Source: Anaeromyxobacter soli
Lineage (GTDB): Bacteria; Myxococcota; Myxococcia; Myxococcales; Anaeromyxobacteraceae
Length of the DNA stretch: 64,000 nt
Direction: 5' to 3'
Assembly (NCBI RefSeq): GCF_022808855.1
Contig: NZ_JAKZLF010000005.1
Span: forward strand, 149,487-213,486
This document shows, piece by piece, positions 39,272 to 39,785 of the stretch. The notes below the pieces were generated by a model that made no database searches, was not told the DNA's origin, and saw only the letters and a list, made by a program, of their open reading frames with translations. Position 1 is the stretch's first letter; each line of letters begins with the position of its first letter. The position numbers were made by a program, and so were the translations under genes.

Positions 39272-39365
39272 GGGCCCGACGGCCGGCCCCGGCCGAACCC
39301 TCCATCCCTCCCGCGGCTCTCATCGGGCGGCGGCCTCTCGCCGCCCCCGCAGCCGGAGGAACGCC

Positions 39366-39785
39366 GTGCGCTCGAGCCTCATCGCCGTGGCAGCCGTCCT
39401 CGCCGCGCTCGTCCTGCCGGGCGCGGCCGGCGCCCAGGTCAGGACCGTCGGCGCCGACGAGGTCCGGGCGCTCGTCTCCGGCGCGCGGAAGGCCGTCCTC
39501 GTGGACAGCCGCAGCCCCGAGGAGTACGCCGAGGCCCACCTGCCGGGCGCCATAAGCATCCCGGCGGCGTGGACGAAGGCGTACCAGGGCTCCCTCCCGA
39601 AGGACCGCGCGGCGCCCATCGTCTTCTACTGCCGCGGCGGCGGCTGAACGCTGAGCCAGGAGGCCGCCCGTGCGGCGGCCGAGATGGGCTACAAGAACCT
39701 CCACGTCTACCAGGGCGGCCTGCCGGACTGGCTCGGCCGTGGATTGCCGGTGGAGCGCGGCGGGCCGGCGGCGAAGCGCGGCTGA
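39366..39785 (+). CDS. Exported rhodanese-domain protein with in-frame TGA: candidate selenoprotein
   Basis: The reading frame encodes a 139-residue single-domain rhodanese if TGA at 39645-39647 is read as an amino acid. The GTG at 39366 has GGAGGA 5 bp upstream, and residues 1-24 are a Sec signal peptide (LVLPGAAGAQ). The frame is rhodanese-like on both sides of the TGA: DEVRALVSGARKAVLVDSRSPEEY before it, and LSQEAARAAAEMGYKNLHVYQGGLPDWLGRG after it. The TGA is codon 94 in the active-site loop FYCRGGG-U-TLS, where homologues of the CxGPxCxxS subgroup have a second Cys; Cys89 is kept. A perfect 7-bp hairpin with loop CGTGC starts 14 nt after the TGA, with the loop 21 nt away. The alternative is a nonsense-mutated gene giving a 93-residue truncated product. 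Confidence 0.72.
39662..39680 (+). promoter_or_regulatory. Putative bacterial SECIS hairpin
   Basis: GGCCGCC (39662-39668) pairs perfectly with GGCGGCC (39674-39680) around CGTGC. The loop lies 21 nt after the TGA and contains G and U near its start, as known for bacterial SECIS elements read by SelB. The Ala-rich code in this GC-rich genome could produce such a stem by chance. Confidence 0.5.

Follow-up and report, generated by a model that had tools for sequence, protein, structure and literature searches.

A predicted selenocysteine-containing exported rhodanese from Anaeromyxobacter soli and its order-wide relatives with selenocysteine or cysteine at the same codon

Introduction

Rhodanese-type selenoproteins have been predicted since 2005, and several families of them are already present in the literature (PMC13188914, PMC9312934). 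An inventory from 2026 distinguishes five rhodanese forms by their motifs, namely UxxS (form 1), UxxG (form 2), CxU (form 3, NF041203), a further UxxG (form 4) and UxxxxU (TsoB, NF045694) (PMC13188914). The UxxS form goes back to Zhang and Gladyshev (2005) and has WP_010941598.1 as its reference (PMC13188914, Table 1). The 11-protein selenoproteome of Anaeromyxobacter dehalogenans, described in 2006, does not include a rhodanese (PMC1794560), and our search of the literature yielded no paper on rhodanese selenoproteins of the Myxococcota.

Here, we analyze a gene from Anaeromyxobacter soli that lies at positions 39366..39785 on the plus strand of a 64,000-nucleotide stretch of genomic DNA (the window) and is interrupted by an in-frame TGA. 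An earlier interpretation based on the letters of the DNA (the sequence-only reading) had proposed a rhodanese-type selenoprotein at this place and considered such a protein unusual in the periplasm, a judgement that, in view of the known families, is only partly right. Our comparisons indicate, with a probability of about 95%, that UGA codon 94 is read as selenocysteine (Sec) via SelB and tRNA-Sec, directed by a hairpin that overlaps the coding sequence. The predicted product is best read as an exported, single-domain periplasmic rhodanese with a Cys89-x4-Sec94 active-site loop. Since ordinary gene callers cut the gene at the UGA, its family is easily missed.

Results

The gene starts with a GTG codon at 39366, which is preceded at a distance of 6 nt by a Shine-Dalgarno-like GGAGG sequence (39355..39359, plus strand). 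When the TGA at 39645..39647 is read through, it encodes a protein of 139 residues, with Sec as residue 94. Residues 1-23 (39366..39434) resemble a signal peptide with an AGA/Q24 boundary, as judged by eye from the translation, and the protein would be directed to the periplasm. Start codon, ribosome-binding site and N-terminus are thus as the sequence-only reading had described them. The interrupting codon is the only in-frame TGA within the gene, and there is no frameshift. Another 45 sense codons lead from it to the true stop codon, a TGA at 39783..39785, whose position coincides within a few codons with the ends of the homologues; the continuation to a normal stop had been recognized before, but its length had been given as 46 codons. 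The read-through protein matches the Pfam Rhodanese profile (PF00581) over residues 30-123 with 70.1 bits (cut-off 22.2), in a single domain that spans the TGA, in line with the initial view of an otherwise intact rhodanese. The gene stands by itself, with a convergent oxidoreductase gene after it, and the same downstream genes adjoin the orthologues in two other genomes of the genus (G008 and G005).

The active-site loop reads FYC-RGGG-U-TLS and is opened by the expected catalytic residue, Cys89 (codon TGC, 39630..39632), five residues ahead of Sec94. In an AlphaFold2 model generated from a four-row alignment (pLDDT 77.7, pTM 0.72), Cys89 is located at the end of a strand formed by residues 85-88, followed by a loop (residues 89-94) and a helix (residues 95-106), while the signal-like N-terminal stretch is of low confidence. 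According to this model, Sec94 therefore ends the active-site loop and is positioned at the start of a helix, where the pKa of a thiol or selenol is generally reduced. The solved structures that match the model best are rhodanese domains (3tp9, 6mxv, 3nhv, YgaP and GlpE).

The host genome (5.3 Mb, 100% complete) contains the machinery for Sec incorporation. The sequence-only reading had suggested looking for selA, selB, selC and selD and would have been refuted by a lack of selB, selC or selD. All four are present: selA scores 537.8 bits, selB 306.9 bits (over its cut-off) and selD 392.9 bits (L149, G000:C44:21000-24500), and there is a tRNA-Sec with a TCA anticodon (tRNA-Sec(UCA)). The selD gene has an in-frame TGA of its own, within the motif GAGUACK and directly followed by a hairpin, and SelD is accordingly read as a selenoprotein itself.

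Related rhodaneses occur in all nine genomes of the genus. Orthologues in four of them (G008, G005, G003 and G004) are 84, 77, 58 and 48% identical to the A. soli protein and carry a TGA at the same codon. A TGA at this codon also occurs in a second Sec-rhodanese subfamily with the loop sequences FYCKNTRU, FYCSGPRU and FYCASPTU, found in G001, G002, G003, G005, G006 and G007; the FYCKNTRU loci (L068, L073 and L075 in G001, G002 and G006) are from further species of the genus. Among the three most closely related species, dN/dS ranges from 0.12 to 0.27 after the TGA and from 0.14 to 0.34 before it, which indicates that both halves of the gene are under purifying selection.

A scan of the genome contigs with the single protein returned three distant loci only and was replaced by a whole-genome search. 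Using a profile at E <= 1e-22, we identified 78 places in 58 of the 145 genomes of the order investigated, all of which were read individually. The first loop cysteine is invariant among the 78 family members. The codon corresponding to Sec94 is TGA in 37 cases, spread over several families of the order, TGC in 36 and TGT in five; TAA, TAG or codons for other residues do not occur. Thus, homologues have either a TGA or a cysteine codon at exactly this site and none of the other stop codons that would have refuted the sequence-only reading. The site corresponds to the second cysteine of a C-x4-C rhodanese loop (FYCRGTGC, FYCNGPNC or FYCANEKC in the Cys forms), as that reading had placed it. The nearest Cys form, from another genus of the family (G118), is 46% identical and has the loop FYCRGTGC-TLS. 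The host genome itself encodes a Cys paralogue with the loop FYCNGPNC and several tandem rhodanese domains (L100, G000:C26:33475-34449), and plasmid records returned distant rhodaneses only.

A quick tree of the 78 short sequences implies about seven exchanges between Sec and Cys, at least three of them on well-supported branches. The count is rough because resolution is poor, with 32 of the 75 inner branches open. SelB was detected in all 27 Sec-form genomes of at least 90% completeness, compared with 10 of the 16 genomes in which every form has Cys; completeness is 61-82% for the three Sec-form genomes with no detected SelB. Three Cys forms, L079 and L102 from G059 (98% complete) and L091 from G145 (88% complete), are nested among Sec forms belonging to the same family group. 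A SelB over the cut-off was not found in either of these two genomes, and the three proteins likely represent cases in which Sec was replaced by Cys after loss of the machinery. A long-branch Sec form, L119 from G140, has the loop sequence FYCNGPTUGKS and a hairpin in another register, whose loop is located 20 nt after the TGA; it may reflect a separate origin of Sec.

Downstream of the TGA in the A. soli gene, a perfect 7-bp stem (GGCCGCC, 39662-39668; GGCGGCC, 39674-39680) encloses the loop CGTGC (39669-39673). The loop of this SECIS-like hairpin (39662..39680, plus strand) begins 21 nt after the TGA, and a 57-nt stretch folds at -22.6 kcal/mol. The published constraints on bacterial SECIS elements comprise a loop of 3-9 nt, a stem of 4-16 bp, G followed by G or U in the first loop positions, a distance of 16-37 nt from the UGA and a folding energy of <= -7.5 kcal/mol (PMC13188914). 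The hairpin falls within all of these limits, and its description in the sequence-only reading proved exact. No part of the window matches an Rfam model at gathering scores, a result to be expected because general models cannot capture the variety of bacterial SECIS elements. Taken from the gene alone, the hairpin is modest evidence and proves little by itself: when the stretch is recoded synonymously with local codon usage, 2.7% of the variants form a hairpin of equal quality, because the encoded segment is alanine-rich and the genome GC-rich, and for the G003 sequence this fraction rises to 54%.

Comparison across the family, by contrast, provides strong evidence. A hairpin with at least 6 bp in its stem, the published loop rule (G, then G/U) and a distance of 16-37 nt past the codon is found in 37 of 37 TGA forms versus 3 of 41 Cys forms, although the species counted are not independent of one another. 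Only three Sec/Cys contrasts are located on well-supported branches; the hairpin follows the same direction in one to three of them and the opposite direction in none. In 34 Sec forms, the stem pairs share a common register. Pair 20/26, whose two bases are both third codon positions, is C-G throughout these 34 forms, whereas it is paired in only 13 of the 41 Cys forms. Pair 17/29 is C-G in 31 Sec forms and T-A in three, and pair 14/32 is G-C in 25, C-G in four and unpaired in five. The compensatory changes in the stem thus include C-G to T-A, C-G to G-C and G-C to C-G, and one set of them alters amino acids: pair 16/30, which joins codon position 2 to codon position 1, is G-C instead of C-G in L086 (G100), L090 (G132) and L103 (G157), recoding Ala-Ala-Arg-Ala-Ala-Val to Gly-Ala-Arg-Ala-Ala-Leu, with the Ala-to-Gly and Val-to-Leu exchanges occurring together. 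At these three loci, the RNA element seems to determine which amino acids are encoded.

Discussion

The recoding signal, the Sec machinery and the conservation of the site can all be read from the sequences, and they strongly favor the decoding of codon 94 as Sec over several other explanations of the in-frame TGA. The sequence-only reading had named a decayed gene as the alternative, in which the TGA would be an ordinary nonsense mutation and the downstream part a remnant. Seen singly, a lone TGA looks alike in both cases, and some rhodaneses show recent coding drift. However, a decaying gene is hard to reconcile with 37 homologues from several families that share a TGA at the same codon but never have a TAA or TAG there, with the absence of frameshifts and the low dN/dS downstream of the codon among the three nearest species, or with the presence of selA, selB, selD and tRNA-Sec, and we consider this scenario barely credible. 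A similarly negligible likelihood attaches to the notion that the UGA specifies a different amino acid, for instance Trp, or undergoes plain, selenium-free readthrough. We found no point in support of it, whereas all 41 non-TGA homologues have Cys at the site, the hairpin tracks the TGA, and TGA serves as a normal stop in the neighbouring genes and in most genes of the genome. The UGA could also act as a selenium-dependent switch that, at low selenium levels, stops translation at residue 93 to release a functional short product, given that any Sec codon causes termination when Sec-tRNA is scarce. Yet, judging from the structural model, a product of 93 residues, ending before helix 95-106 and the remainder of the domain, should not fold, and nothing suggests a separate conserved role for it, making such a switch very unlikely.

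Assuming that codon 94 indeed specifies Sec, a chemistry can be proposed for the protein. SelB would bring Sec-tRNA to the UGA codon, guided by the hairpin just downstream within the coding sequence, and the read-through rhodanese would be exported to the periplasm. There, Cys89 would accept a sulfane sulfur as a persulfide, as other rhodaneses do, and Sec94, which closes this six-residue loop, could provide another nucleophile, either attacking the persulfide or relaying the sulfur. A transient Cys89-Sec94 selenenylsulfide would form in the process, and an outside reductant would reopen the bond. The protein may accordingly act as a sulfane-sulfur transferase or persulfide reductase that is faster than its C-x4-C relatives. 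We see about even odds for a sulfur relay from Cys89 to Sec94. As a real, if less probable, possibility, Sec94 may be present in an enzyme that is not a sulfurtransferase, with Cys89 and Sec94 forming a dithiol-like redox pair that reduces periplasmic peroxide, disulfides or oxyanions such as selenite or arsenate. Redox enzymes make up most of the selenoproteins with known function, and the same is assumed for uncharacterized ones (PMC13188914); moreover, the two loop positions are always occupied by Cys/Sec or Cys/Cys. On the other hand, the rhodanese fold and the catalytic cysteine in its usual place are retained throughout the family, which speaks against this alternative.

The family represents a clean natural experiment: sister genomes, some with SelB and some lacking it, carry the same enzyme in a Sec or a Cys version, and orthologues such as the Sec form of A. 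soli and the Cys form of G118 make the benefit of selenium to a sulfurtransferase directly testable. It also offers a case in which an RNA signal may shape a protein, with the flip of a stem pair carrying two amino acids along in three genomes. The most far-reaching picture, which we regard as possible but less likely than not, would be an order-wide lineage of rhodanese selenoproteins outside the five listed forms that operates a periplasmic Cys/Sec relay through persulfide and selenenylsulfide intermediates and has repeatedly exchanged Sec and Cys, following the presence of SelB.

Among the known systems, form 1 (UxxS) shares with the A. soli protein a rhodanese domain, one Sec and the Sec-x-x-S motif (here U94-T-L-S97), and the protein may simply belong to this form, with the comparison resting on the listed motif. 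Forms 2 and 4 (UxxG) likewise combine a rhodanese domain with one Sec, but the sequence here is U-T-L-S rather than U-x-x-G. The small rhodaneses of form 3 (NF041203, rhodanese_LYCAU) also have a Cys/Sec pair in the loop, yet their Sec follows two residues after the Cys instead of five, giving C-x-U rather than C-x4-U, and the protein reaches only 44.9 bits against the cut-off of 115 bits. The best NCBIfam match is the rhodanese part of TsoB (NF045694; 62.2 bits, profile positions 40-159, cut-off 805 bits). The spacing of its U-x4-U motif equals that of C-x4-U, but TsoB contains two Sec residues and a DsbD-like part of ~400 residues, whereas the protein described here is a lone domain; in a sample of the phylum, no genome passed 805 bits, and only the DsbD-like part was matched. 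PspE and GlpE of Escherichia coli consist of one rhodanese domain each, and PspE is exported to the periplasm (PMC2593051). Both have one active-site Cys and no second Cys or Sec, and the match is 30.1 bits at a cut-off of 102. The C-x4-C exported rhodaneses of the order (for example L050/L084, L100 and L106) usually lack a SECIS-like hairpin but have the same domain and loop, with Cys at the position of Sec. Viewed alongside these systems, the A. soli protein is very probably a real rhodanese selenoprotein and a new member of a kind that is itself already known.
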